Shown here: piece by piece, positions 14,473-62,234 of the stretch
How the letters are laid out: each line of letters begins with the position of its first letter
How positions within the stretch are numbered: position 1 is the first letter of the stretch
Assembly (NCBI GenBank): GCA_950295325.1
Contig: OX485805.1
Coordinates: 53,714,758 to 53,778,757, forward strand
Origin: Polytrichum commune
Lineage: Eukaryota; Streptophyta; Polytrichopsida; Polytrichales; Polytrichaceae
Direction of reading: 5' to 3'
DNA length: 64,000 nucleotides
Notes under the pieces: model-generated
Seen by the model: only the letters and a program-made list of their open reading frames with translations
Told to the model about the DNA's origin: nothing
Database searches by the model: none
Program-made: the position numbers and the translations under genes

Positions 14473-15241
14473 CCCGGGTAGGGCACTCATACATGTATTT
14501 AATAACCCATCTATGACGGAAGGGTATTTATCATGGGGCTATTTATCTAAGAAATTGGAATTCTTTACACCCTATCAGTACAGATAAATCTAAATTTTGT
14601 CATTTTAGATGACCCTATTTGTATTTATAAAGTCGCAAGTGAACTAGTTTCTAGTACCCTATGTTCCTTATAATTTTTATATTTGACCCCATGAATGACA
14701 AATCATAGGACTCTTGAAAGTTTGTAGTGAAAATTCAATAAACCATGTCTAAACTGAAGACATCAAACAATGTCTCAAAACATAAAAACTTGAAGCATTA
14801 TTAGGACCTCCTATTGTTCCAAAACATACATCAAACAATGTTCAAATCAAACAAACTTGAAGCAAGCAACCCTAGGGAAAAATCAAAGATACAACGCACA
14901 AAGCAAAGAACACCAAAACCCTCGTCATCCAAATTTTTCATTCGGGAATTTGGATTGAAAATGGATAGTTTTTCATCCATTGACCACCATAAAATGCATT
15001 GTATACCTCTGCCTCAATATTTTTTTCTCTACCTACTATTCCCAACCCTATTTTAGATTGAAAGAATTAGATAAATTGATGCATTATATGATACCCTTAT
15101 TTTTTTATACATACAACTTTGTAATTGAAGAGGTGCTTCATTATATCGAAGAATTGTATAAATTTTCTCACAAATGAATAAAAAATACCCTACATTCTTT
15201 CTCACATGGTTTAATAAATTTTCGCGAGTGCCCTACCCGGG
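14473..15241. mobile_element. 8-bp-TSD DNA element inserted in copia gag
   Basis: 769 bp bounded by CCCGGGTAGGGCACTC and its reverse complement GAGTGCCCTACCCGGG, with looser pairing inward to about 34 bp. The target duplication CTCAACTT is exact at 14465-14472 and 15242-15249. The gag frame (SIIALNF | GNYLAHIKSCK) resumes across it. The interior is AT-rich without a convincing reading frame. Termini and TSD length resemble the CACGGGTAG elements further right. Eight-base duplications suit the hAT class, but that assignment rests on TSD length alone. Confidence 0.85.
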
Positions 15242-15423
15242 CTCAACTTCGCAGGTAATTACCTTGCGCACATCAAGAGTTGCAAAAGACCAACGGATAC
15301 ATAGAAGACCTTTTGCAACATTCATGAGACGAGGAGTTTGTCCAAAATTATCGATCTTCATTCATCGCAAGTTTTCATGAGCAAAAAAATGATGACTTAT
15401 TGGACCACATTAACAAGGTCAAG

Positions 15424-15823
15424 AAAAACACAATATTCATTACAATGAGAGTTTTCCAGTGAATTGAGAGTACATAAAGCAAACTATTAATCCAAGAATG
15501 AAATGAAAACCACTGGAAAGTTGTAGAGTACAAGTAAAAAAATAACATTTGATTTTCTGCCGTAAATTCCATTAAAATGAGAGTATGTTAAGCTGGGAAA
15601 TCGACTCATTTAGGTCGACTCAACCTAAATTGACAAAATATTGTCCTCATTTAGGTCGACTCAACCTAAATGAGTCGATTTCCCAGCTTAACATACTCTC
15701 ATTTTAATGGAAACTACACGTCTGAAGTATAATCTAGTATTTATCAACCTAACATGACTTTTAGGTGTCCAAATGGCCATTATTATTTTGAGAGGATCCC
15801 ACTCTCTCAAAATATTGAATATC
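15424..15823. mobile_element. Hairpin-bearing insertion in copia gag
   Basis: About 400 bp separate HINKVK from LVDQFVCLEV in the gag frame. The ends pair loosely: AACACAATATTCA..TGAGAG on the left against AACACGATATTCAA..TGAGAG read in reverse from the right. A near-perfect long hairpin (15567-15712) sits in the middle. The target duplication is unclear, with GAAA at both ends at best. The boundaries are set by the gag frame and are good to about 10 bp. Confidence 0.55.
15567..15712. repeat. Long near-perfect hairpin, 48-bp perfect arms
   Basis: The arms start TTCCATTAAAATGAGAGTAT on the left and close with the exact reverse complement on the right. They match without error for 48 bp and, with a few mismatches, to about 63 bp, leaving a loop of about 20 bp. 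Each arm contains ATTTAGGTCGACTCAACCTA plus AAT in the same orientation (about 15608 and 15648), itself an 8-bp stem with a 7-bp loop. A foldback transposon core is the simplest reading. A small-RNA precursor is possible but untested. Confidence 0.85.
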
Positions 15824-16478
15824 GTGTTGAAACTCGTAGATCAGTTTGTTTGCTTGGAGGTACTTGTGATAAATGGACATATTATCATGACTTTGCTCGA
15901 GAGTTTGTCACCCGCTTACAAACTCTTGATCATCACCTTTGAGACCATGCTCATGAAGGAGCTGATTATGAAGTATGTGACAACACGTTTGATACACGAG
16001 ATGTCCAAGAGGAAGGAGAACAAATTCCAATGTAATGATATCATAATAATGTTGGTCAAAGCAAAGGAGGCAATTCATCTTCGGGTAAAGACATCAAGAG
16101 GTGTTATTTTTGTGACAAACCGGGACACATACTACGTATTGCAACAAGGCAAAGAACAAGGACAAAGATAATGCAAACAACACCAAAGATAATGATAATT
16201 GCGCATTTACAACACAACATATTAGAACATATTTGTAGATCATATGTAGGTGGATCACGGATTTGAAAGCAACAAAATACATGATTTTCCATATGGTGGC
16301 ATTTGATACATACGAGATAATTACTTCATGCAATATTTGTTTAGGTGATGATAACATTGTGAAAGTAATCAAAATGGATTCTATTGGTGTTGAAGTGTAG
16401 GTGAAATACAAAGCCAAAAAACATTCATATAGAAAATGATCTCCATGTACCCAAGTTACAACAAAAACACACCCCCCC

Positions 16479-17645
16479 AAAAAAATCATAAATTTAAAAA
16501 ATATAAAAAAATATATCTAATCACACCAAATTGCAACACTTTAGGCATTGAGCATATTTTTTATTATTTGAAATCTTCTTTAGTGTATTTTTCATTTTTT
16601 TAATGTTAACGTCAATTTATGTCAATCTTCCAAGATTTTGATAAATGGCAAACTCTACAAATAAAATAAATTTTATAAAATAAATTCATGATGTATATTG
16701 CATGTACCTTTAGGGTCTTGAAAATAACCTCAAAGTACCATTTTATCTACTAGTGGGATGCCAATTATTTAAGAACTTTAGATAAATAGCCCACCTTTAA
16801 ATAACCCCTGACCACACATGATTTACAAAATCATATAGCTAGTGACCTCCCCATGATGTGTTTCTTGAGGCTAGATGCAATTGATCTTGGAATGGTCAAT
16901 GCATCCAAATGGCTAAGCATTAGAAAGAGCATGAAAAGCTCTATAAGATAAATTTTTGGTTTGCAAAAAAGACTAACAAAATTTGAAAGAGATATCATCA
17001 TATGTTTCTTGGACCTCCCATATTATGTGGTTAGTTGAAATGAGTTGGTTAATAATGTGCACCCATTGTTTTATACCCAATATGTTTTATATGGAGTCTT
17101 TGTTATTAGTATGGCCCACACAAAATTTACCATAATTTGCATACTTCTATGAATGGTTACCATTTGGAGTGGTGATACTATGAGGGGCCAACTTCTATAA
17201 ATGAAAATGACAAAAGCATGGGGGGCACACTTCCAATATTTTCCAAAAAGGGGATGGAATATAACAAAGGGTGGCATTTATTTTTCAAAAGTAAAAATTA
17301 TACTAAAATTACACTTAACAAAGGATGGCATCTATACCTAATACTTATGTTAAAAAAAACCTAGCCTACTAGTTATTGGGTTTTTTTAAGAAAATATCAC
17401 AAGTAACATACATATACAAATATCCCAAGAGAAAAATCAAAAGTTGAGATTATTTTGCAAGATTATTGTCTAGACCTTAGGAGACCATATGATCTTTGTC
17501 TTAGGAGAATATTCTCTATCCCATGAGAGGAGCCAACAAGTGAGGCAAATTTCATTCATGAGAATTCATATTTCATTCATTCAAGGCAACCCTTAGGGAT
17601 GTATGAAAGGCATTCCCTAAACCCTAATGGGGGGGAGCTCATTTT

Positions 17646-17648
<3 letters not shown>
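16479..17648. other. AT-rich intergenic stretch, no gene supported
   Basis: The copia relic stops at a C-tract/A-tract (16471-16488). Nothing downstream continues into integrase or reverse transcriptase. Short open frames on both strands have low-complexity composition and no motifs. Confidence 0.4.

Positions 17649-17715
<67 letters not shown>
17649..17715. repeat. (CT)n microsatellite
   Basis: An uninterrupted CT tract of about 33 units. It creates a Leu/Ser-rich open frame on the plus strand and an Arg/Glu-rich one on the minus strand; both are artefacts of the repeat. Confidence 0.97.
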
Positions 17716-17718
<3 letters not shown>

Positions 17719-17847
17719 CCGTGTAGCAAACAAGGGTGTGTGGGGGCGAACACAATGGGGTGTGTACAAGCCCCATTACAAGCATGTATCTATTTTGGCC
17801 CTTTTTCTTTGTTAAACATTGCAGCAAGGAGACACGCAAGAGAGGTA

Positions 17848-18030
17848 TTAAAGAACTCAAGAGTCATACAACGCAAGTTTAGGGTGGTGAGAGTCAAGCG
17901 CGAGAGGGGTCAAAGCACTCAAAGGTCACACAACGCAAGTTTCGTAAGGCATGTATTGGGCACAAGAGATGGATCGAAGAACTCAAGAGTCAGACAACTC
18001 ACGTTCTCGGTGGTGGGTATCGATGTTTGT
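17848..18030. repeat. Degenerate tandem repeat, unit about 62 bp
   Basis: The phrase (G)AACTCAAGAGTCATACAACG, followed by CAAGTTT and a GGTGGTG tail, appears three times in diverging form with its CTCAA anchor at about 17856, 17918 and 17981. No coding role is supported, although the frame stays open across the repeat. Confidence 0.5.
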
Positions 18031-19525
18031 GAGGCAAGGACCTTGAATACATCTTTTGGTAAGTCTCTAATGGGTGTTGTGGCGGTGGCGAGATAGGGGT
18101 GGATTTTTGGGTGAATTTGTATTGGAATCTTGAAAAATATCTTTATTACTTTATGTCCAAATCTCTTCTTCTTTTTAGTTTCTTCATATACATATTTGGT
18201 TAGGGATATGAATGCTCCAAAATCATAATTAAGAATACACCACTTCAAAGGACTTGAATTCCAATATAACATAATTTAAAAGTCCTCAAAATGGACACCA
18301 AGGAAAATTAATTACCCCCCCCCCCTTAAAAGTATGTCAAATATTGCACGTATCACAACATTTTACACTATGTGTGGCTCCCGTGAATAGAAGTAGTCTG
18401 GCTAAATCACCTCACCAAGCACCAATTTTAACAACTTAACCTTAAATAACATGTTTTTTTATTTTATTTCAAACATTTCAAAACCCTGCATATCTTTTCT
18501 TAGAAAAATAAACATTTATTTTATTACCAAAAATATATCCTTACAATGCCAAGGGGACCCAAAGCAGCAGAGAGCGGGGTAAACTCTGCATACTTAAGCT
18601 GGATTTAGTATCATTGGGCCATCGTATAAGTACAAATCTGTGAAGTGTATAAGTACACATTAATGTACATGATGTAGAGGTAAATGACAGGAAGGCTATT
18701 TGAGCTACTTGGAGTCATGATTGCTACTTGTAGACTTTAAGGCAATCATCGATGAAAGGTTTTTCACTGTCCAGCTAAGTGTCGCGAAGTTTATTGATTC
18801 GTAACTTCATCATAAAACATACGGACAATGAATATCTTTCTCTCAGGAGATTAATCTGCTCAAGTGAGTTAAAGAAGTGCTTGTATGCTCCTAAGCAGTC
18901 CATCACTCCAGCAACAAAATTTGTTCAAGGTGTTCCATCACCAAGTTAGCCTTGAAATCAAATCTCATCAATTCTTCTTCAGTGCTGACACTAATTCTAT
19001 GGCACAACAGAGGCGATCTCACCTGAACTTACTTGATACTCTTTATCAGACTACTAATTCCTCATCATCACAGGAAGTGGGAGGCTCCTGTTTGTAAAAG
19101 TACAGGCTGTTCATCATGACATACTTGCCCACGATTTCTTGAGGCTGCAGGCAAATTGGCGACAAACGTGGATTTGCATGAATGCGAAGCATGCCGACAC
19201 TCCTGATTGTAAGCGTTGACATTGACCATGTGTGACTTCATACAGTTGTCAGTGTGGAAGTGTTTGCAAGACTTTTGCCTTCGTATTTGCAGGCCACAGG
19301 GGCTTTGCAAATGCACACACATCAGTTGTCCTTGTTGAAGGACCAGAATATAGTTCTGAAGTTTTCTAACTAGGGACCAACAATATTGGAGAGCTAAGTT
19401 TGGAGAACATTGCTTCAATCCTGAAGAATAAAATCAACAAAGGTAGCAAAAGTCCAACTAAAATACGTTGACTTAAGGAAAGGAATGAGTTTTCTTGAAC
19501 CTGCAGATTATTGCTTGTGGATTAA
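18031..19525. other. Intergenic, no gene supported
   Basis: From about 18540 the composition becomes more balanced than in the AT-rich flanks. An open frame of 116 codons on the minus strand (19068-19418) is Cys/His-rich but matches no domain I know, and its frame has no splice partners I can see. There is a C-tract at 18317-18326. Confidence 0.4.
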
Positions 19526-20119: not shown

Positions 20120-20122
20120 TAA

Positions 20123-21515: not shown

Positions 21516-24022
21516 TCACAATGGATTCCTGGCACATTCAGGAGCGGCAGTTGGGAAGCGCTTCCGATCGGCGCAGTAATCGTACAGAAGATAGTTCTTC
21601 CGAATCCATGCCAGCTCATTGACCTCCTTGACACCCAGAGTTTGGTAAGCAGATTGCTCCCACCAGCTGTTGGTTTCAGCAATGCAGGGTGCAGTGTTGC
21701 CATTCAGGGCTAGGCAAGCATCCACGTTGAAACCCTCGTAGGTCGCCACAAAGGGGGCCATTGTCCAGTTGAGCTTCACCCAACCATCATTCGTGGCCCA
21801 GTTCTCGCCGTTCCAGATGGTGCTGTAGATCCCTACGGGCTGCGAGTCGGGGTATGCCACACCAATGTCCTTGTTGTTCTTGAACACTCGGATCGGCGTT
21901 GTGTCAACATAGAAGCTGTAGAAAGCATGCAAGTCCATTAGCTTCGCCATACAATGTCGAATCCACCCACTCACACATGCATGATTAAGGACGACTATAC
22001 TAATCTCTTCACATCTTCTGACATAACCAATCCATCTCGATATATGTCCACCCTGATACTTTGATCATTGCAGGGTACAATGTCATCAGGACTTCTACAT
22101 TCCTGAGGAGAAGCTCTTAACAACAAGGTTTAGCCATGGCTACTATGACTCGACGTTGTGTCAACGTGGAAGCTGTAGAAAGGATGCAAGTGACCCGTTG
22201 GCCTCGCGCCGTACATCGAATCCACTCATGGTTTTGGAGAACTAGACTGCAATTTCTTCACATCTTTGATGTGCATCTTTGATTTGATCAATCCATCTCG
22301 ATGTATGTCCACCTTGAAGCCTCGATTGTTGAGTTGTGTGTTATCAGGACCTCTATATTCCTGAGGAACTCTTAACAACGAGTTTTGGCCATGGCTACTA
22401 TGACTCTACTGCTCATGACGTAGAAGCGTGGAGCTCGGAATTTTATTCTGATGTGCATGACATAACTACAGCATTGGAGTACACTCATTTTAAGGAAACT
22501 ATTCTAAATTTATGCAAAATTTAGACACAATGTCCCGTAACTGTGGACCAAACGAACATAATTTATGTAGATGTGTGCAAAGAACCCCATGCTCATGAAC
22601 ACTAAGGTTAGTTCAGGTGGAAGTATCACACAGGAAGATGAGCAAACATACATGATTTGGTTTTTGTTCCACAGAACAGAGTATGTGTGGAAATCTGCAG
22701 TTGGGTCGAACCACAGGTAAATTCGCTGCTCACGGTTTCCTATGCCATTGGCATACACATTCGTTTGCAGGATGTAGGGTTGGCCTGATACATTGCCAAG
22801 GAACTCAAAATCCATTTCATCGTGCTTCCCGGGTGTCTGCGAAGACATCTGCAAACCCACAACCGGAAGTCACAGGTAAGAACAAGGGTAATCACCACTC
22901 GAGACAAGAACTGTGAAAATTATGGAACTGTATGTGTTCAGACTCCAGAGGGATTGGTGTACAGATCAGTAAAGATTCCAATTCAAACTCACATAGTATG
23001 CAGTTACAGTGCCAGCTGAGTCTCCTGGCACAAGCTTCATGCGCATTCCAATATTTCCAAATAAATATTTCTCCTTGGATCCAAATCCAGAAGCTGTAAA
23101 ATCACAGGCAAACACAGCTAGCTTGAGAACACAGTATACGGACCCGCATCGAGTGTCCTACATGTCCTGGAATACAGTTCATAAAAATGCCACTACATAT
23201 CATAATAGTGCAGCAGCTCAAGGTTAATTTCCTTAGCCTGCAAGACAGGCCCAGCGTTCAACTAATTCTCAACCGACTCTTCAGCATAAAGAAATGTTCG
23301 TGAGGACAATGACCTACTGTTCAACTGCCCAGATATGAGCAGCGAGTACGTCACCATCCACAACAGATACCCAAATTTGACAAGACGCCTCATTCACGTT
23401 AAATGTTTTAGCATTAGGAATAAGTTTCAGCTCAACAACTCTTCAATCGTTTATGGACCGATAGCTAGATTCTTGCTATATGTTAGTGCACAGACTGGAA
23501 GTGTATGGCAAATTATGGCAAGAGGCTTGTCATCAAGCTCATACAGCTAGTACATTGTCATTGCCAGAGGCTAAACCTCTACACGCAATAGCCATAGATA
23601 CTGATAATCCTGCATCCCATAGAGTGTTCTCGCAAGGATCACATTGCTCAATGAGCACTGTTTCAAGCTGGACCAGGACTCAAGTAGCTCCAAGGAGCGC
23701 AAAATCAATCAGTAGCAGCCATTGCAACACTTGGAAGTTAGGTGAAATACAGGTAGAGGAGAAGGGGGTCGGCATGGAGAGTAGAGTCACCTGAGTATTC
23801 ATCCAGCACAAGCTGCACCTGCATTCCATTATTGAGCACCCGAAAGTGCTGCAGGTCCGACTGACTCACGTAGTTCTCCGTGAAGGGCGTGGGGGTTTGT
23901 TGGGCTCCAATTCCTTGGCCAGCGACCAGGACCATAATTTTGCTCACCATGAATCCCAAGCATGCCAGTGCAACCACCCACTGCCTCATTGCTCCTCCAA
24001 TCTTCAGATCAGATAGACCCAT
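21516..24022 (-). CDS. Xyloglucan endotransglucosylase/hydrolase (XTH), copy 2
   Basis: Four exons on the minus strand (23791-24022, 22993-23093, 22652-22848, 21516-21915) with phases 1, 0, 2 as in copy 1, and exon 2 of identical length (101 bp). They give 309 residues from ATG 24022, or 298 from the in-frame ATG at 23989. The second start puts the hydrophobic signal ([21 protein letters not shown]) closer to the N-terminus, so the start is open. The GH16 active site is [10 protein letters not shown] at 120-129 (E122 nucleophile, D124, E126 acid/base), followed by N130-V-S for glycosylation. [26 protein letters not shown] and a C-terminal domain ending in [17 protein letters not shown] complete the family signature. 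Role: secreted remodelling of wall xyloglucan. It converges with copy 1 across 13.7 kb. Intron 3 (736 bp) contains a duplicated copy of its own acceptor. Confidence 0.95.
21898..22405. repeat. 256-bp tandem duplication spanning the last acceptor of XTH copy 2
   Basis: GTTGTGTCAAC(A/G)T(A/G)GAAGCTGTAGAAA occurs at 21898 and again at 22155. GCCATGGCTACTATGACTC closes each unit at about 22133 and 22388. The offset is 255-257 bp. In gene orientation the upstream unit places a second CTACAG|CTTC acceptor at 22173 inside intron 3, still in splicing phase 2. Reading from it meets TAA after 14 codons. Confidence 0.85.
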
Positions 24023-25804: not shown

Positions 25805-26025
25805 CACTGATTATCCCTATCAGTGCGTGTTACTATGCAGAGTTACGCAGTGCTAAAACGATTTAATGAGAATGCATTATTTACTAAGCAGAGTCATTCG
25901 TGTTCTCTAATGTCCAAACAACCCATTCAACTTCCGTCAATAAAAATTAAGCTCTTGAGTAAGACTTTATTGCACTGCATAACTCCAAATAGTAACAAGC
26001 ACTAACTTAGTTGGGATAATCAGTG
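25805..26025. mobile_element. TA-flanked MITE, family A, copy 3 (best preserved)
   Basis: 221 bp between TA dinucleotides (25803-25804, 26026-26027). The left terminus CACTGATTATCCC..CAGTGCGTGTTACTAT pairs with the right terminus read in reverse, CACTGATTATCCCAAC..TTAGTGCTTGTTACTAT, over about 54 bp. TA flanks fit the Tc1/mariner-Stowaway class. The interior carries no coding frame. Confidence 0.85.
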
Positions 26026-26601: not shown

Positions 26602-26925
26602 CACTAAATATTGTATTATGTGTCATATGGTATTTTATGTCATTGTAGTAACTTTTCTAATGACACGTCTTACGAATCAGTTTACAAGTATTGTCATGGA
26701 TGATCACGATTTGGATGCAACCATGCACCCCTAAGACTTCTGTAATGAAATATCGTCATGGAAGATTGAAATCTAGATGAAAATGCACTTAGTAAAGTGA
26801 TAGTAAATTGTAACATTGTGAATTCCAATGAAAATGTTTTTGCAGAAAAAGACAAATATTGTTAGGTTTACATTTAGTGTTGGTGACACTACACATGCAG
26901 TTTACAATTGGTATTGAGCATAGTA
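26602..26925 (+). mobile_element. TA-type MITE, family B, copy 1 (right end lost)
   Basis: It starts CCACTAAATATTGTATTATG and shares with the other B copies GTCATATGGTATTTTATGTC, a GTCATGGAAGAT..GAAA(T)TCTAGATGAAAA block, and ACATTTAGTGTTGGTGACAC. The right terminus is replaced by unrelated sequence after ATTGAGCATAG. Full copies lie at 38933, 46000, 49043, 54281 and 57549. Confidence 0.7.
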
Positions 26926-26981: not shown

Positions 26982-27041
<60 letters not shown>

Positions 27042-30150: not shown

Positions 30151-30153
30151 TTA

Positions 30154-32611: not shown

Positions 32612-33019
32612 CACGGGGAGGTCACTTCATTGTCAAGTTGACACCACGTGTGGACAAAGTTTGTTACCCCTATATTACATGTCATAAATAATTTTAAAAT
32701 TTATGATATTTTTTCTACATATACATAACCATTGATAGTATCTTTTTTATAATTTTTTGAAATTTTTAGTCATCTTTATTTTTTTAGTAATTGTTTTAGT
32801 TCAATTCTATGTCATTCTAGTTAGAAATGGTATGTTTTATGAAAAAAACAAATCATCAAATTTAAATACCACTTTTGACTATGTCATAAGTACTGTGTAT
32901 ATCTACTCATGAAAAAAAATTGATAAAAAATTGACCCATTTTGGTGGTGCAACTTACCAAAAGAAGATTTTTTTGGTCACACGTGGTGTTCAACTTGACA
33001 ATGGAGTGATCTACCCGTG
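32612..33019 (+). mobile_element. CACGGG-type MITE, 8-bp TSD, copy 1
   Basis: 408 bp with inverted termini CACGGGGAGGTCACTTCATT and, from the right, CACGGGTAGATCACTCCATT, pairing for about 38 bp through GTCAAGTTGA..CACCACGTG. The target duplication TCTGGGTC is exact (32604-32611, 33020-33027). The interior is AT-rich and closely matches the copies at 35517 and 61826. No coding frame. Confidence 0.93.
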
Positions 33020-35516: not shown

Positions 35517-35926
35517 CACAGGGAGGTCACTTCATTGTCAAGTTGACACCACGTGCGGACAAAGTTTGCTACCCCTATATTACATGCCCTATATAATTTT
35601 AAAATTTATGATATTTTTTCTACATATACATAACCATTGATAGTATCTTTTGTATACTTTTTTGAAATTTTTAGTCATCTTTATTTTTTTTAGCAATTGT
35701 TTTAGTTCAATTTTGTGTCATTCTAGTTAGAAATGGTATGTTTTATGAAAAAAACAAATCATCAAATTTAGTTACTACTTTTAACTATGTCATAGGTACT
35801 GTGTATATCTACTCATGAAAAAAATTTGATAAAAGTTTGACCCATTTTGGTGGTGCAACTTACCAAAAGAAGATTTTTTTTGGCCACACGTGGTGTTCAA
35901 CTTGACAATGGAGTGATCTACCCGTG
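35517..35926 (+). mobile_element. CACGGG-type MITE, 8-bp TSD, copy 2
   Basis: 410 bp. Left terminus CACAGGGAGGTCACTTCATT (one change from copy 1); right terminus in reverse CACGGGTAGATCACTCCATT. The target duplication AATGACCT is exact (35509-35516, 35927-35934). The interior is nearly identical to copy 1, indicating recent spread. Confidence 0.93.
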
Positions 35927-38932: not shown

Positions 38933-39257
38933 CACTAAATGTGGCGTTTAATGTCCCTATGGTAACTTTGGGGATGACACTTGTTAGGGATTAGCAAACA
39001 CATACTGTCATAGAGGATGGATGAGTTTCACCCATTGGCCAAAACCCTACCTTCTCTTGTCAGCAACTTGTGAGAAAACATTGTCATGGGTGCTTGAAAT
39101 TTGGATGAAACAGTCACCTGGTAAGTGACAGTGATTGCAACGTTGTAAATCAAATAATGTTGGGTTAACATTTAGTGTTGGTGACACTATACGGCGGTTG
39201 ACAATTAGTATGGATTAAGACAACGATAATTGGTGACCCTAAATAACATACTTAGTG
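38933..39257 (+). mobile_element. TA-type MITE, family B, copy 2
   Basis: Begins CACTAAATGTGG and ends ATACTTAGTG next to TA. Interior blocks shared with copies 3 and 6 are GGCCAAAACCCTACCTTCTC, TTGTCAGCAACTTGTGA and ACATTTAGTGTTGGTGACAC. No coding frame. Confidence 0.75.
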
Positions 39258-42200: not shown

Positions 42201-42780
42201 TTGCAATATATTCCATAGATGCTTCTAAAACGATCGGTAACTATTGTTAAGTCTTGAGCTTAATATGTAAACCCTATAGATGCATTAAGCAAATGGCATG
42301 TGGAGGATTTGACTACAACTTACTAAGTTACTATACTTGAAATATATAGCTTTACAAATGACATGAAACCTTGTAGATGCAAACCGGCATGTGGAGAAAT
42401 GGACAATACAATTTTAGTGTAAGTTGCAAATGTCTTGAGATTTGGAGCTTAAGTATTTACCATGTTAAACCTTGTAGAGTACAAATGATTGTCGTGGAAA
42501 CTAAAACTATTGTTATACATGAGTTATGGAGTTTAGTTAGGTGAAACTCTACAAATGTAAAAGATGGCATGTGGAGAAATATGACTGTGAAATCAATGAA
42601 TGTTGCCAATGTCTCAATATTTGGAGCTTAAACATCATGTTAAACCCCGTAGATTACAATTTATTGTAGTGGACATTGACAATACCTATTTATATTGGAG
42701 ACATGGAGCTTTAACATGCAAAAATCACCACACAACACTCACATGCCTAAGTTATTAACCTCCGCTAGTGACTTAAACTA
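39258..42780. other. AT-rich intergenic stretch, no gene supported
   Basis: Several phrases are repeated loosely, for example (A)TGTGGAGAAAT(G/A)(G/T)AC and AAACC(C/T)(T/C)GTAGA between 42260 and 42700, suggesting an old tandem repeat. No domain or long frame is recognisable. Confidence 0.4.
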
Positions 42781-42997
42781 CATCAATTATCCCAAATAAT
42801 GCATGTTATTATTCAAAGTTACGCAGTGCAATAACATCTACTCTAGAGTTCAATTTTCACTAACGAAAGTTCAATGAGTTGTTCGGACATTATAGAACAT
42901 AAATTGTTTTGCTTAGTAAAAATATTACATTCTCATTGAATAGTTAGAGTGTTGCGTACCTTCATATTGTAACATGCACTAATTGGGATAATTAGTA
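42781..42997 (-). mobile_element. TA-type MITE, family A, copy 5
   Basis: About 217 bp, TA before the left end (42779-42780). The left terminus CATCAATTATCCCAAATAAT pairs with the right end in reverse, TACTAATTATCCCAATTAGT, and both continue into TGTTA(C/T)(T/A)AT. The interior GAGTTGTTCGGACATTATAG matches other A copies in inverted orientation. Confidence 0.75.
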
Positions 42998-45207: not shown

Positions 45208-45791
45208 CACGGGTAGATCACTTAGTGCATTTTAAAAACGACATGCGGCATAATATAGAGAGGATTAAAATCATTTGAAATAAAAATTATAAAGGAATTC
45301 CAAATAATGAAGGGGCCATTAAATGTAGACAATCCCATTATAAGTAAGTTAGATGGACATAAAATGTGGGCCATGTATTTTTTGTAAAATTAATATAGGG
45401 GCTGAAGATAAGGATCCTATGTGTTGTCATCATAACAGTGTTTGCAATGGTATTACTTTGCTATGGTCTCCTATGTGTTTTCTTCATAACTCTGTTTGCA
45501 ATGGTATTACTGTTTGCACCCTTCTTTGTTTCCATGCTTTCCCTCAACACTCGTCAATTGTGTTAGGAAGTAGATTAGCTTTTATTACTTAAAAGGAATA
45601 TAGAGTACAAAAAATTACAGTGGCTTGGACAATATAAGTAATGGAAGGGTGCAAACAAATGGGCCATTTTTGAAATTTAAGTAATTATAGGGAGGCTTTA
45701 ATTCAGCCCTTGAAGGTAAATAGCCCCAAAACAAAAAAAAAACCCCAGGCGCACGTGGTGCACAAAAATGCCTTAGAGTGATCTACCCGTG
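45208..45791 (+). mobile_element. CACGGGTAG element, 8-bp TSD, second subfamily (short form)
   Basis: 584 bp with termini CACGGGTAGATCACTTAGTG and, from the right, CACGGGTAGATCACTCTAAG. Target duplication TCCATGAT is exact (45200-45207, 45792-45799). The interior differs from the 408-bp MITEs but shares about 230 bp on the left and 250 bp on the right with the 2.1-kb element at 55230. It contains a short tandem duplication around GTTTGCAATGGTATTACT (45440 and 45494). Confidence 0.93.
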
Positions 45792-45999: not shown

Positions 46000-46374
46000 C
46001 ACTAACTATGATATTTTAGTGTCATATGGTATTTTATGTCACCATGGTAACTTTTCAGATGACACTACTTATGAATAAGTGAACAAATATTGTCATGGAA
46101 GATGGATGAGTTCATCCATTGGCCAAAACCCTACCTTCTCTTGTCAGCAACTTGTGATGTAATATTGTCATGAATGCTTGAAATTTGGATGAAAATTAAC
46201 TTGGTAAGTGACAATAAATTGCAATACAACAAATCTTTAATCCTCCTAACAATTTACAAGGAATGACAAATAACGTTGGGTTAACATTTAGTGTCGGTGA
46301 CACTATACCGCGGTTTACAATTACTATTGAGCAAGACAGTTAGAATTAGTGACACTAGATATCATATTTAAGGT
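46000..46374 (+). mobile_element. TA-type MITE, family B, copy 3
   Basis: Begins CACTAACTATGATATTTTAG after TA and ends CACTAGATATCATATTTAAG. The terminal block is close to self-palindromic. The interior is well preserved relative to copies 2 and 6 (GGCCAAAACCCTACCTTCTC, CCGCGGTTTACAATTACTAT). Confidence 0.8.
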
Positions 46375-49042
46375 GGTTTGAAAGTGTACCGACATGTGGA
46401 TAATTTCCTATAGCAAGTAGGGGAAATGACTCTCAAGTAGGTCGTCCATCACAATACTTAATTCATGAACATAGAAGGTGGTTATGTGCACACATATAAA
46501 AGAGTAACCTTCTTAGGATGATAGTTCCTGACATGCCAGTTTTTAAAAAAAAATTTGTGCTAAATCTTTATCATACCAACTTGGTGAGATACTCCCTAAT
46601 TGCAAATTGGATATCCGATCATGTAATTGATCATAATTCTTGGGTGAGAATGTAACATGTTGGAGTGTTGTGGAGTATGTCGGGGCTCCTTTTGTAGATG
46701 GATATGGGGTGAACATGTTATGACAAAGTGTACATCTTATAGGGAAAATGAACTCTTAATTCAAACTTCATTTTGTAGAGGTTGGAATGCACACGTCTAT
46801 TTTTGGCATGGGAAAGGGATATTGATGCTAAGGAATAAAGTTTTCAAAGGGGACCCAACAAACAAGCCATATTATGTTGTAGATAGTGGAGTTGCTTTGA
46901 CCTCTAAGCTTTTGAGAGGCTCAAGTGTATATATCATGAGAATAAGATGAGGGTGCAAGCACGGTAAAGTGGACGACTCTTGATCCTTGCCTAGTCTTAA
47001 GTGAAAGTGATTCAAAACTATACACTGACTTTGAATTTTATGAAGGAAAAAATCATAGACATTTAAAAATATATTGATCCACAAAGCCAAGGAATTTATG
47101 ATGACAAAAAAATCTAGTATTAGTCTACATCTTTTAGAAGACGGTGCAAGTGATGTGCAAATAGGTGATATTGAACAAACAATTGCCTAAAATTATGAGA
47201 AAATTACATTAAATTGATGGTTTTCTACAAAATTCTGTGATGATGCCCTCAAATGGATAATGAATTCAAGGAATATGAAAAAAACCCCAACTTCAAAATA
47301 TTTAAGATCATGAAATCTATGTCCAAAACCATGTTCAAACATTTGCTTTTGAGCAATCACTTTTGATGATAAGTTTTGTAGATCTCAACTTTATATTCTA
47401 CATTTGAGTATTCAACACAACAATAGAGGGCACCTTGAAAAAAAATTCCAATTTAAACAACACTTTGCTATTACTTTTAGGCCTTTGACCAAAAAACAAA
47501 GTATGATTTTAGTATACTAGAGCATTATTTTGGTCCACTTTACCATGCTTGCACCCATGAAGTGAGTTTTGATTGGTTAGATCATGGTTTTGTACATCCT
47601 TCAGAAAAATGAATAGCCTTTTTAGATGTACACACAAGAGAAAATTAATGCCTCTCCCTCGTGTATGCTGTATATGTTAGTGCCTCAAATAATACCCCTT
47701 CTTACACTCATGTTAGTTTGTATGTGGAATGAAGAATCTACTCCTTGGGAATGGGAGCTCAAAAAATTTCAGATTATACACCCAGCCCACTTTTGGTTGA
47801 TTATACGTTGGAAGATTAATGCCGTAGTGTGACTCATGTATGAATGTATTTATTTCCTCGACATAAAGAATATCTACTAGATGAAGCTCCAAACCCATAA
47901 ACATCAATTCTAATAATTTGATATTTATTGAGGCTCACATAAATTGTGTATATAGCCCCTTAGTCTTTTGAGCGATAAAGGCAATAAAACACAAATAGAA
48001 CACCTTCTTGTATATGTAGATGCATTCATTTATCTATTTTGCAAGACAAATGAAATGCCTTTATTTCATTGCCAAAAAACCCATCATACAAGGCCGCCAA
48101 GAATGTGAGAACCGCAAACCACCAGAACGAGTAAAAAGTCCTAAACAACACTAACCAAGCCAATCTTAGGTGCTTTAACGTTGCATGTCAACACTTCTAG
48201 TGTTGTCCATGTGGTAGAGGAGCTCCCCCCTCCCTGCCCCCAATACTTTGTTATATTTTTTCAGCGCACCATCATATCTTATTAGATGACAGTGTGTCTG
48301 GATCTCTCAATAATTTGTCCTACACAATTCTTGCATATTCTAAGACCTTGTCATGGTTTTTGAAAGCCCCATCTCTTATTGCTGTAGCTGAGATCATTCC
48401 TTTCAACCCGAATGGTTCACAAAGTGATACCTCCAAGACGTAACCAAAATCTGGGAGACTTTACTAACCGGGGACGGGATTTCCTTCCCGAAAATCCCAT
48501 GTTGCCAATCAAGTGGTTTCCAAGGCCCTTTTTGCCCTTGCCGCGCCTTGTACAAGATCGATAATTGTGATGGCAATGCCCCGTGCTCTATTATGCAACC
48601 TGACAACCCCAAACCTACGTGAAATTGTAGACATATCTGGATCGAGCTGGCAACCTAGCCTAATGATACTCGTAGAAAGGCTTGGCAGTGTATGCTCCTA
48701 TGTTGGCCACCTACGTACTAATGGGAAGAATTGTGTGAGAGTTTTGGAGCCTGCCACCAGTTTCAAGCTTTGCAAGGTAATTGCCTAGCAGTGGACATTC
48801 TTGGACTCTCTCTTGCTCTCTTGCTCGAGTTGAGTGTTGGAGGTGGCCAATTCCCAGGCCACACAACTGGCTTTGCGGATTCCCACACGGCCAGCCTTCA
48901 TAGTTAGAGAGACTTTGCAGCAGGCTGTGTGCATGAAAGAAAAGCACACAGCAATTTATGGTCACCACTGTACTCCTCCCTTGATCATCAATGGCACTCG
49001 CTGGGATGTTATTGATTATCGCCCCAAGTAAGTTAGTGCAAC
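46375..49042. other. Intergenic, no gene recognised
   Basis: A plus-strand frame at 46657-46950 (97 codons) and two at 48513-48788 and 48834-49031 have ordinary amino-acid composition but no motif I know. The 48.4-49.0 kb stretch is GC-richer than its surroundings and could be a captured or decayed exon. No function is proposed. Confidence 0.35.
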
Positions 49043-49534
49043 CACGCTAAATGTTGTATTTTAGTGTCATATGCTCGTTTATGTCATGGTGGTAAAGTTC
49101 TTCTAATCACACTTCCTCTTGACTAACTTTCATCTTTACATGTGCATGTTTTTACATGTGGTTTTCATGTGGGACACGAGTGGGTTTCGGCGATGCAAGC
49201 ATGACACATGGCAAAATTTGAGGGGAGAATAATCGTTTTGTGGTAGAGTAGCGAGCCCTCTGTTTACTTTTACCTGAACTCATTTTCACCGAATCAAAGT
49301 TTGGTATGTTCGATGGCATCCTAACATCTTTATATATGAAATAATGTCATGGATGAAAATTGGATGAAAAAGCACTTAGTTAGTGACAATAGTTGTAACA
49401 TTGTAAAGCTATGCCCAAATTTCTCGTACAAGGAGTGAGCTTTACATTTAGTGTTGGTGACACTACATGGGTGGTTTGCAACTACTACTGACCAAGACAA
49501 ATAGAATTGGTGACACTAAATACAATATTTAGTG
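49043..49534 (+). mobile_element. TA-type MITE, family B, copy 4 (with extra internal segment)
   Basis: Starts CACGCTAAATGTTGTATTTT and ends CACTAAATACAATATTTAGT G before TA (49535-49536). It is about 120 bp longer than copy 3. The extra sequence lies near 49135-49320 and has no counterpart in the other copies. A (TAG)n run follows at once (49535-49552). Confidence 0.75.
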
Positions 49535-49912
49535 TAGTAGTAGTAGTAGTAGAGCTTAGTCCTGTTCATGAGGTAGATAGGTCTTAACATGTAATATCTC
49601 CAATTAGCCCATTTCTCCTAAGACATGAAATACTTGATTGATACAAGTTGGTTAGCAAATCCAAGTTGGGGCCATAGCCACTTTCCTCATAAATTCTGGA
49701 GGTCGCACCAAAATGTTAGTCATTATCAAAGTGAAAAATTTTGTGCTCATCAAATGGTCATATAAACCCACCCCCCTCCAATTACGTTGACAACAAAACA
49801 TCAAATGATTATCATATTTCAAGCACAAGTCCTAATTTCTTTTAATTACATGTCACAAAATCACCACATACCACTAAGATATAGGCGCTCAATTATGATG
49901 AGTAACAACATT

Positions 49913-49952
<40 letters not shown>

Positions 49953-53760: not shown

Positions 53761-53776
53761 TGGAAGCCAATGAGAA

Positions 53777-53965
53777 TGCATCATATAACATCATTAGGCA
53801 GTGTGTTTCCATTCATGTGGGCCTCAAGAATATAACCCATGAGATGTCCCAACCTAGTGCAGATTTAGATTTAGTCTGAGTCTCCTTGCACTAGATTGGG
53901 GCTTCCCATGGTTATATTCTTAAGGCCCACATGAACAAACGCATATTGCTTAATAATGTTATGCA
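53777..53965. repeat. Foldback repeat, arms about 80-95 bp
   Basis: Left arm TGCATCATATAACATCATTA..TTCATGTGGGCCTCAAGAAT..AACCTAGTGCAG pairs, at roughly 75-80% identity, with the right arm (53887-53965) read in reverse. The unpaired centre is about 15 bp. It looks like a foldback MITE. Target duplication not identified. Confidence 0.75.
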
Positions 53966-54280
53966 CCGGGTCTTAGGTATTTAATATTAAACATTTTGGC
54001 CAATTTGTAAAATAGTCACCTTTGAGGTAGGGTCGGTGTGCCAACAACTAAGTATCTTGTAATTTATCAATATTTTAGAGGAGTCTTGATATTACATTTG
54101 GAATGCTATTCTAATGTTTTTGGAGGGGTGTCATGGAATGGTCATGATATGACTAATAATGCAACTACTTATGGGGAGCTACTCCAAAAAAAATGCAAGC
54201 ATGCCAGGTTGCATATGACCTTGGAGGTTAGAGACCTTTCACCGCCAATGTGATAAATTTTGATGACTTTGAAGGTACTA

Positions 54281-54650
54281 CACTAAATATTGTATTTAGT
54301 GTCACCAATTCTACATGTCTTGATCAACATGAACTATAAAACAAATGTGCAATGATACCAACACTGAAGATAAATGTAACATTATTTATCATTCATTGTA
54401 AAATATAATGGGCATCATAGATCTACAAATTTGCAATTACTCTCATTAAGTGGTTTTTTTCATCATCCAAGTTTCAATCATCCATGACAAATTCATTACA
54501 TAAATGCTAGGATGTAGAACATATTAAAAGTGGAAGAACAATAAGTAAGTCGGGGATGACAATATTTGTAAACTTATTCATAAGAAATGCCACTAAAAAA
54601 GTTACACATTGACATAAAATACCACATGACATTAACTACAATATTTAGTA
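54281..54650 (-). mobile_element. TA-type MITE, family B, copy 5 (inverted)
   Basis: TA at 54279-54280 precedes CACTAAATATTGTATTTAGT; the other end is CAATATTTAGTA followed by TA. Interior order is reversed relative to copies 1-4. Confidence 0.75.
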
Positions 54651-54652
54651 TA

Positions 54653-55221: not shown

Positions 55222-55229
55222 GTTTGACC

Positions 55230-57306
55230 CTCGGGTAGTTCACTAAGTGCATTTTAAAAACAACATGTGGCATAATATAAGGAGGATTAATTTCGTTTGA
55301 CATAACATTTATAAAAGAATTTCAAATAATGAAGGGTCCATTAAAAGTGGACAATCCCATCACAAGTAAGATAGATAGGCTTAAAATGTGGGCCATTCAT
55401 TTTTTGTAAAAATAATATTGGGGTTGAAAATAAGAATCCTATGATGTATGTTAAGTAGGATCAATTTTGTACACATGCCTTAGGAGGGATGGATGAAAAA
55501 TGACTCATCGTTTGTCCAAAAATGAATGAAAATTGCAGCACCTGATACTAGTCGTCTTCCTGCACTATCGTTTGTAAAAAAACCTAGGGTTTTGTTTCTT
55601 CCTCGAGTCGGTTATGTTTTGGGTAACTTTTTGTTGAAGCTCATTTTTGTTCAAGTTTATGATAACTAATTCCAACAATTATGTCTTGTTGTAGTTGCTT
55701 TAGGATCAAGGTTTTGATTTTCTTGGTTGAAGGTCTTACGGTTGTTTTGGAGGCAATTTAGGGTTTAGATTTTCCATGCGTGGCTTGTGATTGATTGTTC
55801 CGCTTCCGCTGGGGCAGTCATGTTGGTGTTTACAAATGGCAACTCAAATGAAGATGTGGACTATGGAGGGCGATTCTATTGTGCTGTAGTATTACACCAA
55901 GTTGAAGGTATTTGAGGTGGAAACGTACGCCTTGCTTAGGGTTTTGAGGATGAAATGTATGCCTCGCTCATTGATGGTTCGGTTGACAATATGGGAGTTT
56001 GGGTAACCTCTACTCTTAGATCTTGATGTTTGTATATTTTCTTTATCGTAAATCACTTGTTTCTTTGGTGCATGATTGGACACTAAGGTATAGGACATGG
56101 TTACATAAGTTTGTTTTGTTTTGCATACTGTCTGCACAGACTTGTAGGGAACCACATGACTTCTGCATAGCTACAATGGTTGCGGTTAATATTGGGCAAC
56201 ACGGTGAAATTTGGTGTGTTTCGGCTCACACAAGCTGATGTCCCTACGTTTCCTCCATACTGGCATGCATTTTGAGGGCTGGCAATCGTCGACACCTTCG
56301 ACGCCCACATGGAGCTGTTGCATAAGTCGTGGGTTTTGAATCACCTGATGCCCAACCACCTTCGCACGAGCTCTTTTGCACACCTTGACTTGACGGACCT
56401 TTATGCAATCCGTATGCACCTCAAGTCAAGTTGGTTGCGAAAATACTTTGTTTGTCATGGTGATGGTTCGGTTGACAATGTGGGAGTTTGGACAACCCCT
56501 ACTCTTAGATCTTGACGTTTGTATGTTTTTTTGTGTTGTAAATCTCTTGTCTCTTTGGTGCATGATTGGACACTAAGCATTGAGACATGATTATATAAGT
56601 TTCTTTTGTTTTGCATACCTTAAATCCACATGCACACACTTGTAGGGAACCACATGACTTCTGCATAGCTACAATGGTTGTGGTTTTTTTGTGCGTGTTT
56701 GGGTTAGACATTTACAGAGCGGGTATTGTGTTTGTGAACACACACTCACTCTTGTTGTGTTTCCACCTTGAGCCTTCTTTTTTGATGCATGAAGGTTATG
56801 TTATTTGGGTTGTTAAACTGCAAATTTTAAAGCAAATTTTAAATTGCATTATGCTTAAGTATCCTTGTGTTCTTCATCACTTACAACTTTATGATATCAT
56901 TTAGGTTATGATCTTGGAATGATATGCATCATGTTACCACACTTGTTCTTTTGTAATGCACAAGTTTAGATTTGTTTTGGTAAGCACAAGTCTTTCACAT
57001 GTATGATAAGTTTTTGCAATAGTATACATGCTTTATGCTTTTTTGTTGCCATGCTTTTTCCCACTAGTTTGCATTATATACTTCATTAAATTAACTTTTT
57101 TTTTTAATTAAAAGGAATGTAGACTAGAAAAAATTGCAAGGACATGGGTAGTATAAGTGATGATAGGGTGCAAAAAATAGGTAATTTAAGAGAATTAAGT
57201 AATTATAGGGAGCTTTTAATTTATGCCTTGAAGGTAAGTAGCCCTTAAACAAATAACCCTCCGCCACACGTGGTGTACAAAAATCCTATAGAGTGACCTA
57301 CCCGAG
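55230..57306 (+). mobile_element. CTCGGGTAG element, 8-bp TSD, long form with foreign interior
   Basis: 2077 bp with termini CTCGGGTAGTTCACTAAGTG and, from the right, CTCGGGTAGGTCACTCTATA. Target duplication GTTTGACC is exact (55222-55229, 57307-57314). The first 230 and last 250 bp match the 584-bp element at 45208. The central 1.6 kb (about 55445-57050) does not. That centre holds a direct repeat of about 220 bp (55973-56190 and 56462-56688). Between the two copies is a GC-richer segment, open for 79 codons (56276-56515), reading VDTFDAHMELLHKSWVLNHL, then MPNHLRTSSFAHLDLTDLYA. I do not recognise that protein. No transposase is evident, so the element was probably moved in trans. Confidence 0.88.
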
Positions 57307-57548
57307 GTTTGACCATTTTCATTTTGCTTCAACCTTTAGCCAATCTAGCATAAGTTCTATATTATTTATGGTATTCAATCTCACCTACACTATTAGCAAA
57401 TAGTTGCACTGTATTGCAAAAATGTCAAGTTCACTAGTTGTCAGCATAAAAATATTTGTCAATGACCCTCCTCCATGGTATTATAGGAGTCATTCTTAAA
57501 TGAAAAATCTTGAATAGAGAAAGATGGTGGAAACCAAATTAAACACTA

Positions 57549-57920
57549 CATTAAATATGATATTTAGAGTCACCAATTCTAATTGTCTTGCTCAATACTA
57601 CTTGTAAACCGCGGTATATTGTCACCACTAATTGTTAACCCAAAAATATTTGTCATTCCTTGTAAATTTTTTGGAGGGATTATGAATTTACAGTGTTGCA
57701 AGCACTGTCACTTTACCAAGTAATTTTTCATTCAAATTTCAATCATCCATTACATTATTTCATCGAAAGTTGCTGACAAGAGAAGGTAGGGTTTTGGCCA
57801 ATCGATGAACTCATCCATGATCCATGACAATATTTGTTCACTTATTCATAAGGAGTGTACGTCATCCAAAAAAGTTACCAGAGTGACATCAAATACCATA
57901 TGGCACTATCATATTTGGTG
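57549..57920 (-). mobile_element. TA-type MITE, family B, copy 6 (inverted)
   Basis: 372 bp between TA dinucleotides (57547-57548, 57921-57922). Left end CATTAAATATGATATTTAGA; right end in reverse CACCAAATATGATAGTGCCA. The interior is the reverse complement of copies 2 and 3, including GAGAAGGTAGGGTTTTGGCC. Confidence 0.8.
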
Positions 57921-57922
57921 TA

Positions 57923-60900
57923 GTATTTGGTCAAAGATGTTGGGGGACTTTGTGGCTCTTCAACACACCATATATCACTAAAACTAACAAAAACAGTGGC
58001 TCATTTGTACATGTAGTGTGACCGCAAGTTTCAAAACATCCAATTTCATCTCTCTAGTCCGAGACGGCTTTCTATAAAAATCTTTGGTTCAAGCGTGTGT
58101 GGGTTTCACATGATACCAAACAACCCCAAGAAGGGCTAGAGACCTAAACAAGGTCACCCACAATTCATGTATGGAATGTCACATTCTATGGTATTGCAAT
58201 TTCATGCAGTACATGTGGTAATTCTGTTCACCTTTCAGTTGTGCTACTTGCCATCCAATTTCAACCACAATGTAAGTGTGACTCTGAAACTCTTTTCTAT
58301 TCTTTCTGGAAGTAAGGCAACCTGACTTATGATCCGCTAGCGCAACTTCACAGTACCAAGAGCCAGTTGATTTTGGAAGCCTGAGGGTTGACTGCATACT
58401 GCTACAAGTTCTTTAAAACCCAGTTGTAAAGTTAAGAGAATTTGTTTTGATCAATTCCCTCGACATTCAATGCCGCACAAAATTCTCCCTTGAAATCAAG
58501 CACTAACTTAGCAGCCCACTTATGATTAACATCCTTTCAAGAAAAGTATAGTTTTGAAATTACTCTTTGACGTGATAGTCTGGTCTGAGAGGAAGAGGGC
58601 TTCATATTCTGCAATACCCATATAGCTACGATAACTGGAACTGCACTTGCAGAATGTAACAAAGTATTATAGCATAACCTGGATTCTGGATTCGTAAGGA
58701 TTAGGATCACATCAGAGTCTCATTCATTCAGCTACTTGGAGCTGCATGGATGCGAAAACTAATGATGAGGATCCGCCAAACATGATCAAAATGCATCAGT
58801 TTTGGGGACTGTTTAATGACATTTCAGCTAAAGATTATCTACTGCACGAAATCTTTTGATGTGCAAAGATTGCCAAGTATGTGGACAGCTTACACTGTGA
58901 GGCTAACATGCTTTTTGAAAACTTGAGGTCTTCTGAGAAGACACAGTGGGCAGAGAGGTTACGTACTCACATCTCCTTCACATCTAGATTGTGAGATTGT
59001 GCTGCGTTTTGTTGGTGGAACTTCAAGCATGATGATTATGAGCAGATTGATCCATCCTGTCTATACATCATGTCCAGCAAATGGGGTTTGTTACTACCCA
59101 GAGATTCTGTGTTGTGGGAGCTTGTAGCTCTGAAGTATCTAAGTATCTGCAGAGTCTAGTGGAAACTAAAGAATCTGAAAGGGTCGAAGAAATAAAGCTC
59201 GTTGATGGAGTGTAATAATATGAAGAAAAAAAAAACAGCACCATGATGTGCTCAGTCATTCTCCTGTGTTCTGTTTTGATTTATTTTGTTTTCTTCTTCT
59301 GTTGTTGTTGTTGTGGTGCCATCAAAGAAGCGTTTCAGTCATTTTAGTCGAGCTTCACATCAACTAGATGATGAGGCCGAAGTTGAATGATCAAAACATG
59401 TAGAAGCAAAATATTATGGACATGCTTTCTTACTAGCTGGATGCGAACTATACTACTGTAATGGGGCTTGATGACCTCATCATGGATTGTTATACTGGAG
59501 AACGCTTTATTGTCTGGAGTTGGATTCGTTTGCACTAAAGCAAATTTTGAGATAATTATGAGCTTGATTACTTAAGAATCTACTCATGACTGTAAGTTCT
59601 TTGTATCACTTGCCACGACAACCCTTGAGTTACCTGAAAGAAAGAAGAGTTGTGCTGACCAACAAATTTGCGCCGAGTGAGATGGCTTGCATCAGGTTAC
59701 TAATTAACTTAAAACTAAACACACAGCAATGGCAAAGTAGCAAGCAAATTTTTTCACCTAAACCAAATAATAACACATAATAGACGTGACAATTCAATGA
59801 AAAACAATTCTAGGTTACAACATAGAATATTGTATTTGCAATGTGTTGAGAAATATTAGCCAATCTAAAATAATATGATCATGCCAAATCACATTGACAA
59901 CATACAACAATTTTGTTGCACCCCTAATTGAAGTCAACTGACGTTGTGTTTGTAGGATTGGACCTTGGGATTATGCCCCAAGTTTCATAGGTAAAAAGGT
60001 GATATAGGGGAGTGGCTTAAATCATATGTGGCACTAAAGATGTGTCAAAAGACCACACGCAGCCTCAAGAAGGCAAAGTGTGGGGGTTCTCTCGAAATGA
60101 TGCCTTCTAGGGACAACAACGCTTTTAATTTTTTTTTGATCATAATATTATCTGACTTGAATGATTGAACTATTATTAGTAAAATTCTTAAGGCCTTTCC
60201 AAATGTGCAATGAACATTCCAATTGGACAAAGGATGCGGTTTGCAAAGCCTGTCAAAGTCTAGGGTTGTTAGCCCCAAAAGTGGTAGTTGGCCTCACTTT
60301 GGGGTGAACATTTGATTCTTTGATGGTGAAGTGGGTATTATAAACATAGGACTAGAAGCTTATATGAGTGGGAAGGGTAGTGAAATCATGGGGTGATGTC
60401 CTATGACTTCCCCCACTTATGAGCTTAATGCATATGGCCATGTTCGAGCCATTGGGCTCCTTAGTGACCTGCACTAATAAGGGCATGTCCCTAACTCCCA
60501 ATGGAGAGTTTCAAGGACATCCCTACTTGAAACCCCATTGGGCAAGCATTCTAGGATGTCCCGTAGTGGGGCACATGCCATGCATTCCGCACTTAGGTTT
60601 ATTGAGGGAGGTTGGACTAACTTGTGTGGGGCCCTTGGTTATGTAGAGTTAGCGGCATTACAAATCCATTGTGTCCCACTTTGCGGCTGCCATCGTTACA
60701 CAATGTGTTGCCTTCAAACTAAGTGTGAGTGTGAGATGTGACAAATTCAATTAGAGCTAGTTAAAATGTTTCCCCAAGAGTGTCTAATATTCATACTCCC
60801 ATAGTAAAAATAAGAATTTTTCAAGACCTCAATACATGTGGTATTCATGGAGAATTCATTACTCCCATACAACATCAAAATACTAATTTCTAATTTCTAA

Positions 60901-61817
60901 CAGCTAAAATAGTATATTTTATTACATATAACTATTGTAAAAAGGCTTGATTTTTTTTTTCTAATCTCAACTTTCAGTATTGTATTTACCTCTTGGGATC
61001 ATTAAAAAAAACCCTTCATTTTAACTCATGTTAGGTAGGGCTCAAGCTGGATCATCATCTAACATCTCCATATTTCATCCATTGTATGAAGGGTCTATGA
61101 ATTGCCCATCACCACCCAAAACCCTAGGGTTTGGAGTTGTAGTTTTGAGGTGTTAATGTGAATCATTTATGGAATTTGGGGCGAAACCATTTGAATCCAT
61201 TTTGAGCTCATTTTGATATATTTTGAGCATTGAAACACTCCCTTTAGTGGGGGGCTTGCAAGTGCTACATTGGTGTAGGGTTTGTGCAACAGTTTGGGGT
61301 TGGGTGAATAAGGAGGAATCCAAGAATATCATTGTGTGGGGATATTTTGTTGTGTGGCGGAGTACATTGTTTGCAAGCTTAGCTCATATGTAGACGCCAA
61401 AAGATTGCAAGTAGGTGGGTAGAGTATAACTAACCTCACGAATAAGTCTTCAAATATGGAAATAAAGTTATGTTGGTATCAAGACTTAAGTGGCTCAATG
61501 TGCACTTATGTCAATTTTACCAACCACATCATTATATGAGTTACACCCAATGAATGAAAGAGTATACCATGACCTCATTAAGCAATAATAAAGCATGTTT
61601 GCCTTTATTGTAGGCCTATTTTTGCAAGATTTATATTCTTTCATATACATTTGCTATGGTTTTTCAATCTAATTTTATTTTTGCGTGGTATATATACATT
61701 TTGCTTATTCTTAGCTATAACTTTGTATGTTTATCCCTTTCTTTGTCCTCCCAAAAACCGTATACAAGTGTTGTAAACTGAAGGTGATACACAAACATGG
61801 GTATGCTTTTAATGAAG
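57923..61817. other. Intergenic, no gene recognised
   Basis: 58.1-59.8 kb has balanced composition like the flanks of the XTH genes and may include unrecognised exons or a non-coding transcript. A minus-strand frame at 58179-58397 (72 codons) has no motif. 59.8-61.8 kb is AT-rich apart from a balanced patch at 60400-60740. Confidence 0.35.
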
Positions 61818-61825
61818 GGTGTACC

Positions 61826-62234
61826 CACGGGGAGGTCACTTCATTGTCAAGTTGACACCATGTGCTGACAAAGTTTGCTACCCCTATATTACATGCCATA
61901 TATAATTTTAAAATTTATGATATATTTTCTACATATACATAACCATTGATAGTATCTTTTGTATACTTTTTTGAAATTTTTAGTCATCTTTATTTTTTTT
62001 AGTAATTTTTTTAGTTCAATTCTGTGTCATTCTAGTTAGAAACGGTATGTTTTATGAAAAAAAAAATCATCAAATTTAGTTACCACTTTTGACTATGTCA
62101 TAGGTACTGTGTATATTTACTCATGAAAAATTTTTGATAAAATTTTGATCCATTTTGGTGGTGCAACTTACCAAAAGAAGATTTTTTTTGGTCGCACGTG
62201 GTATTCAACTTGACAATGGAGTGATCTACCTGTG
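61826..62234 (+). mobile_element. CACGGG-type MITE, 8-bp TSD, copy 3
   Basis: 409 bp. Left terminus CACGGGGAGGTCACTTCATT; right terminus in reverse CACAGGTAGATCACTCCATT. Target duplication GGTGTACC is exact (61818-61825, 62235-62242). Same orientation and nearly the same interior as the copies at 32612 and 35517. Confidence 0.93.

Follow-up and report, generated by a model that had tools for sequence, protein, structure and literature searches.

The window, by which we mean the whole 64-kb stretch of DNA that was analyzed, contains six elements with inverted ends. Each is flanked by an exact 8-bp target duplication, none of them longer. The elements fall into three families, A, B and C, which have an end signal of two blocks in common. 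On balance, the evidence favors non-autonomous cut-and-paste DNA transposons that were moved in trans by a transposase encoded elsewhere, probably a hAT-like one. The conclusion on the superfamily is based on this one window. The first-pass annotation had described the six elements, their exact duplications and their related termini, and all of these are present in the sequence. The two-part end is a new observation relative to that annotation, as are two orphan ends at 12223 and 16855 and a DUF7869 gene at 974-4066.

The window resembles plant nuclear DNA in that it contains parts of two xyloglucan endotransglucosylase genes. Pfam matches to GH16 and XET_C are located at 7294-7806 on the forward strand and at 21519-22064 on the reverse strand, and an additional GH16 piece at 22513-22869, also on the reverse strand. 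An Rfam scan of the window gave 0 matches at gathering score, and a tRNA scan of the window gave 0.

Three families of elements

Family A comprises the elements at 32612..33019 (408 bp, with the duplication TCTGGGTC and imperfect inverted ends, 87.5% identical over about 48 bp), 35517..35926 (410 bp, with the duplication AATGACCT and inverted ends, 85% identical over about 48 bp) and 61826..62234 (409 bp, duplication GGTGTACC, inverted ends of about 41 bp, 83%). These copies are 93.9-95.1% identical to each other (93-95% by BLASTN). Three short copies and a longest stop-to-stop frame of 57 aa are characters of MITEs and non-autonomous TIR elements, and family A is MITE-like.

Family B is formed by 45208..45791 (584 bp, duplication TCCATGAT) and 55230..57306 (2077 bp, duplication GTTTGACC), with 15-bp inverted ends that contain 0 and 1 mismatch. 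BLASTN revealed that the two have similar left ends (about 212 bp, 86%) and right ends (210 bp, 78%), and that their middles differ. Inside the longer element, about 225 bp are directly repeated (85%). Family B, with two copies that have common ends, would be of the filler or deletion type. The only member of family C within the window is the element at 14473..15241 (769 bp, duplication CTCAACTT), with 16-bp perfect inverted ends, CCCGGGTAGGGCACTC. It represents a third family and, with one copy in the window, lacks the copy number of a MITE. The three families bear out the earlier count of at least three kinds of interior, as judged by BLASTN.

The six elements have little coding capacity, with longest stop-to-stop frames of 45-101 aa. 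Two of them, 14473 and 55230, were scanned with Pfam over the whole element. No match above the cut-off was found in any of the six frames of 55230 or in four of the six frames of 14473, and below the cut-off there was one colipase match (E=0.043).

Two unrelated 8-mers match with a probability of about 2e-5, so exact duplications at six of six elements are not due to chance. The motif GGTAGNNCACT is found 12 times in the window, whereas 60 random sequences contained it 0.23 times on average. Element ends account for nine of the 12 occurrences, and the remaining three are located at 4404, 4446 and 10629. In a motif-free scan, 12-bp inverted ends with at most 2 mismatches, 60-6000 bp apart, were combined with an exact 8-bp duplication. 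Of the 30 pairs that it returned, four are elements described here, 25 fall within microsatellites, minisatellites or AT repeats, and one belongs to neither group. Since each of ten shuffled windows yielded at most 1 pair (4 in total), this last pair, 34452/35944, is probably due to chance. The elements at 35517 and 61826 were missed because their first 12 bp contain 3 mismatches, above the limit of 2.

The first-pass annotation regarded the insertions as recent, and the divergence of family A lends this no support. Private substitutions number 12/407, 7/409 and 12/408 in its three copies (1.7-2.9%), which at the plant rates that we assume corresponds to millions of years. By simple arithmetic, at about 2.5% per copy a pair of 8-bp duplications stays intact about two times in three. 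Intact pairs thus survive that age more often than they are lost, and they are no proof of recent activity.

The target sites show no excess of palindromes (p 0.24 for the 8-mers, 0.17 for the 14-mers). In a search of the window for empty sites, the joined flanks had no matches other than themselves and, partly, dispersed repeats, and no second copy spans a junction.

Several other repeats are found in the window. One dispersed family, whose pieces occur on both strands and are about 60-92% alike, is located at 26620-26920, 38934-39254, 46019-46377, 49435-49539, 54276-54374 (reverse strand) and 57545-57858 (reverse strand). Each of the two family B elements is followed by a copy of it at a distance of about 230-240 bp. 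Another repeat of about 130-145 bp has three copies, 78-82% alike and one of them inverted, at 9515-9660, 25880-26008 and 42777-42921. A minisatellite with units mostly of 50 bp, at 13726-14100, adjoins the family C element.

A two-part end

Ten ends were aligned, namely eight element ends from all three families and the two orphan ends. The alignment revealed that the end is composed of two parts, a tip, CNCGGGTAGNTCACT, and a second block around ACCACGTGTGG. The first base of CAYGYG is position 34 or 35 in 11 of the 12 element ends; the background frequency of this sequence is 0.001 per site. The exception is the left end of 14473, which lacks the block; its right end carries it at 34. Counting both orphans, where it starts at 34 and 36, the block is found in 13 of 14 ends. 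The spacer between the blocks varies by family, and the distance is constant within two bases.

We scanned for the tip (at most 4 mismatches) with CAYGYG at 33-37. The scan gives a measure of specificity and does not confirm the block independently, as the block was chosen with these ends and the orphans in view. It retrieved 13 places in the window and 3 in all in 15 shuffled windows. The 13 places are the 11 element ends that carry the block, 12223 on the forward strand and 16855 on the reverse strand. Three other tip-like sites, 10625, 28659 and 39967, were rejected as ends, as the scan did not retrieve them.

The tips had been described as C(A/C/T)CGGGTAG. Two of the 12, the left end of 35517 and the right end of 61826, read CACAGG instead of C.CGGG. 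The GGGAGG reported at three left ends is present. All three belong to family A, so it counts as one inherited feature and not three. Farther inside, GGGCTAYTTA (at most 1 mismatch) is found near 63-66 in the right ends of family B, the left end of family C and 16855. It is looser than the first two blocks, with 13 sites in the window, mostly elsewhere than at these ends.

The left orphan, 12223..12270 on the forward strand, is a degraded end with the tip CACGGGAAGTTCATT and CAYGYG at 34. Over 21 bp it is identical to the right end of the family C element, at the same offset. Its tip score is not significant alone, 2.9 such being expected per 64 kb. The right orphan, 16799..16855 on the reverse strand, is likewise degraded, with the tip CATGGGGAGGTCACT and CAYGYG at 36, and matches the right end of 55230 at 78% over 55 bp. 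Its tip score is unusual (0.125 expected per 64 kb). The two face each other 4.6 kb apart, and the family C element is located between them. They may be the ends of one old 4.6-kb element with a nested family C insertion, or two separate remnants.

We did not count the pair as a seventh element. The flanking 8-mers, TTTGATTT and ATGTGTTT, agree at 4 of 8 positions, and weak, sub-cut-off matches to copia gag-pol are found between the ends, although both ends do pass the two-block scan. The 50-bp minisatellite is located between them as well. Pfam searches with 10 of 12 translations of the interior gave a weak zinc knuckle and Pol_BBD, and nothing else. An inverted repeat at 15562-15717, with 69-bp arms 18 bp apart and 93% complementary, is also located between the orphan ends.

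The elements may have moved as follows. A transposase encoded elsewhere would recognize a bipartite end, in which the 15-bp tip marks the cut site and CAYGYG follows about three helical turns inside. From the end sequences we infer that it contacts both blocks. It would pair two such ends and cut the element out. Joining across an 8-bp stagger and its repair would then produce the 8-bp duplications. The first-pass proposal of one transposase acting in trans agrees with three families that have different middles and yet share the tip, in most ends the second block, and 8-bp duplications. Several related transposases would explain this equally well.

The exact sequence CACGTG is present in 7 of the 12 element ends. 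CACGTG is the core of plant G-box sites. Insertions that carry it could affect the regulation of nearby genes.

A search of viral contigs with the two-block end gave 0 stretches, and a search of literature text with four end strings gave no match on topic by title among the matches listed. The two-block end is specific enough for one pass over the source assembly to yield relatives, perhaps an autonomous element. An autonomous element, if found, would tell which transposase moves families A, B and C.

Superfamily of the elements and candidate transposases

We lean toward a hAT-like nature of the elements, and membership of hAT is unproven. All six duplications are 8 bp, as in hAT. CACTA/EnSpm elements have CAC..GTG ends and, like PIF, 3-bp duplications; here 8 of 12 tips start with CAC, yet the duplications are 8 bp. 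hAT ends usually have A at position 2. This is the case in 8 of 12 ends; the four exceptions, with C or T, are the two ends of 14473 and the two of 55230. The duplication pattern nTnnnnAn is characteristic of the Ac group. It is also the pattern of Hermes (PMC10368747), and Buster elements have nnnTAnnn (PMC3517528). Neither pattern is found here (0/6 for each), and a hAT pattern is a preference and no strict rule. For the Tip group of hAT, the authors of one report had not studied target preference (PMC3942097).

A review names seven plant TIR superfamilies and, among the five with lengths in the sections consulted, 8 bp is covered by hAT (8 bp) and Mutator (7-12 bp) (PMC10741241). Terminal inverted repeats of hAT usually measure 5-27 bp according to the same review. 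The earlier remark that the termini are long for hAT thus holds for family A, with 41-48 bp at 83-88% identity, and fails for B and C, with 15-16 bp.

Open reading frames of at least 70 aa outside 900-4100 number 134, of which 47 were searched singly. No hAT, MULE or KDZ domain was found in these 47, and no hAT transposase domain in the scanned part of the window. With 47 of 134 covered, a remnant that is shorter or older may have gone unnoticed.

Another superfamily with 8-bp duplications, or an undescribed one, is in our view rather unlikely. Duplications of this length are reported for Zisupton and a Dileera element, both of KDZ (PMC12730594), and for Merlin (PMC10045372), and of about this length for P (PMC3706591), and the failure of the six duplications to show either hAT pattern would fit such an origin. 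However, the seven plant superfamilies named in the review include none of them (PMC10741241), no KDZ, Merlin or P transposase was matched in what was scanned, and the tip resembles the end of a hAT element, Mar. We are similarly doubtful that the families form a lineage outside hAT defined by a transposase possibly of the DUF7869 type, 8-bp duplications, a two-part end that spans about 41 bp (tip plus CAYGYG at near-fixed spacing) and diverse plant passengers.

MULE duplications are mostly 9 bp, MULE tips usually begin with G, and their terminal repeats are long; all duplications here are 8 bp, and the inverted ends are at most about 48 bp. Non-autonomous Mutator-like (MULE) elements that happen to give exactly 8 bp in six of six cases are quite improbable, even though the 7-12 bp range given for MULEs (PMC10741241) includes this length and the ends of family A are longer than usual for hAT. 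No MULE domain was found in what was scanned of the window.

A near-complete remnant of a DUF7869 (PF25273) gene is located at 974..4066 on the forward strand. The domain is its only Pfam match (E=1.7e-39). The gene contains an apparent 138-bp GT-AG intron at 2445-2582, and a single in-frame stop interrupts it at 3008. Its translation contains three aspartate motifs, IIHDKMDHAKTASP, LDNCAKDNK and GHTHDDIDASFG, which possibly represent a DDD triad. Judged from its sequence it is possibly a transposase gene, and its relation to the elements is uncertain. Just 5' of it, a 22-bp near-palindrome, GTTTGGGTCGGTCGACCCAAAC, is repeated in an array within positions 1-810, with a period of 56 in 285-592. 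These copies could be subterminal or promoter repeats of a DUF7869 element.

Other searches gave little. No paper was found in a literature search on the name DUF7869, and an NCBIfam search gave 0 families. A PDB sequence search returned one match that is not meaningful (E=1.2). In viral contigs, the DUF7869 motif pattern gave 0 stretches, and two pieces of the protein gave 2 pattern-matching stretches each, none of them confirmed.

It is very unlikely that a transposase of the DUF7869 type moved families A-C, with 974-4066 as a decayed copy and a lineage that makes 8-bp duplications. Besides the domain match and the possible triad, this explanation draws on two tip-like motifs downstream of the gene, at 4394..4450 on the reverse strand (ends 4408 and 4450), both with GGTAGAGCACTC. 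The one ending at 4408, GGGTAGAGCACTC, is in the right orientation about 340 bp past the open reading frame, and 0.0017 motifs of its score are expected in 400 bp on one strand. However, per 64 kb its score is expected 0.55 times and that of 4450 5.5 times, and the unpaired site 28659 outscores it. The 4408 motif begins with TTT and not CNC. Both motifs lack the CAYGYG block carried by nearly all element and orphan ends, and neither has a convincing partner end in the window. The gene is thus flanked by a tip-like motif only and not by two-block ends. Comparison of 1-980 with 4069-6500 gave 13 weak inverted pairs, none with a flanking repeat longer than 2 bp. The left end of a DUF7869-bearing element may be located before the window start. 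The gene may also be part of a known superfamily, possibly Sola, whose duplications have a different length. We marked DUF7869 down as the common transposase because the second block is absent at 4408 and a convincing partner end is lacking; with inverted pairs that have no flanking repeat over 2 bp, the link is kept as a low-probability rival.

Comparison with known systems

With a hAT-like transposase acting in trans as the preferred explanation, we compared the elements with three known systems. Zisupton and Dileera (KDZ) were compared by duplication length, and like the elements here they make 8-bp duplications (PMC12730594). They differ in that no KDZ match was found in the scanned part of the window.

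Mar, a hAT Buster MITE of Drosophila, has the terminal repeat CAG(G/A)GGTAGGC, which is close to CACGGGTAG. It also makes 8-bp duplications and is short and non-coding (PMC3517528). Given this likeness, the first-pass suggestion of a poorly described class is not supported. Unlike the families described here, Mar is an animal element, and its duplications fit nnnTAnnn, a pattern found in 0/6 cases here. The likeness in sequence was judged from the tip.

The Ac/Ds system of maize (hAT) includes varied non-autonomous elements, Ds1, Ds2 and Ds-l4, with common terminal repeats and some subterminal motifs. As in the window, unrelated or filler middles and 8-bp duplications are found (PMC3260210). 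The Ac/Ds ends differ in having another tip, and Ds has 11-bp terminal repeats and AAACGG subterminal repeats. The ends here have a 15-bp tip and a single CAYGYG block at a near-fixed distance, and no Ac-like gene was found in what was scanned. The elements repeat a known pattern, that of Ds-like passengers behind common ends, for which Ds is the direct precedent (PMC3260210).
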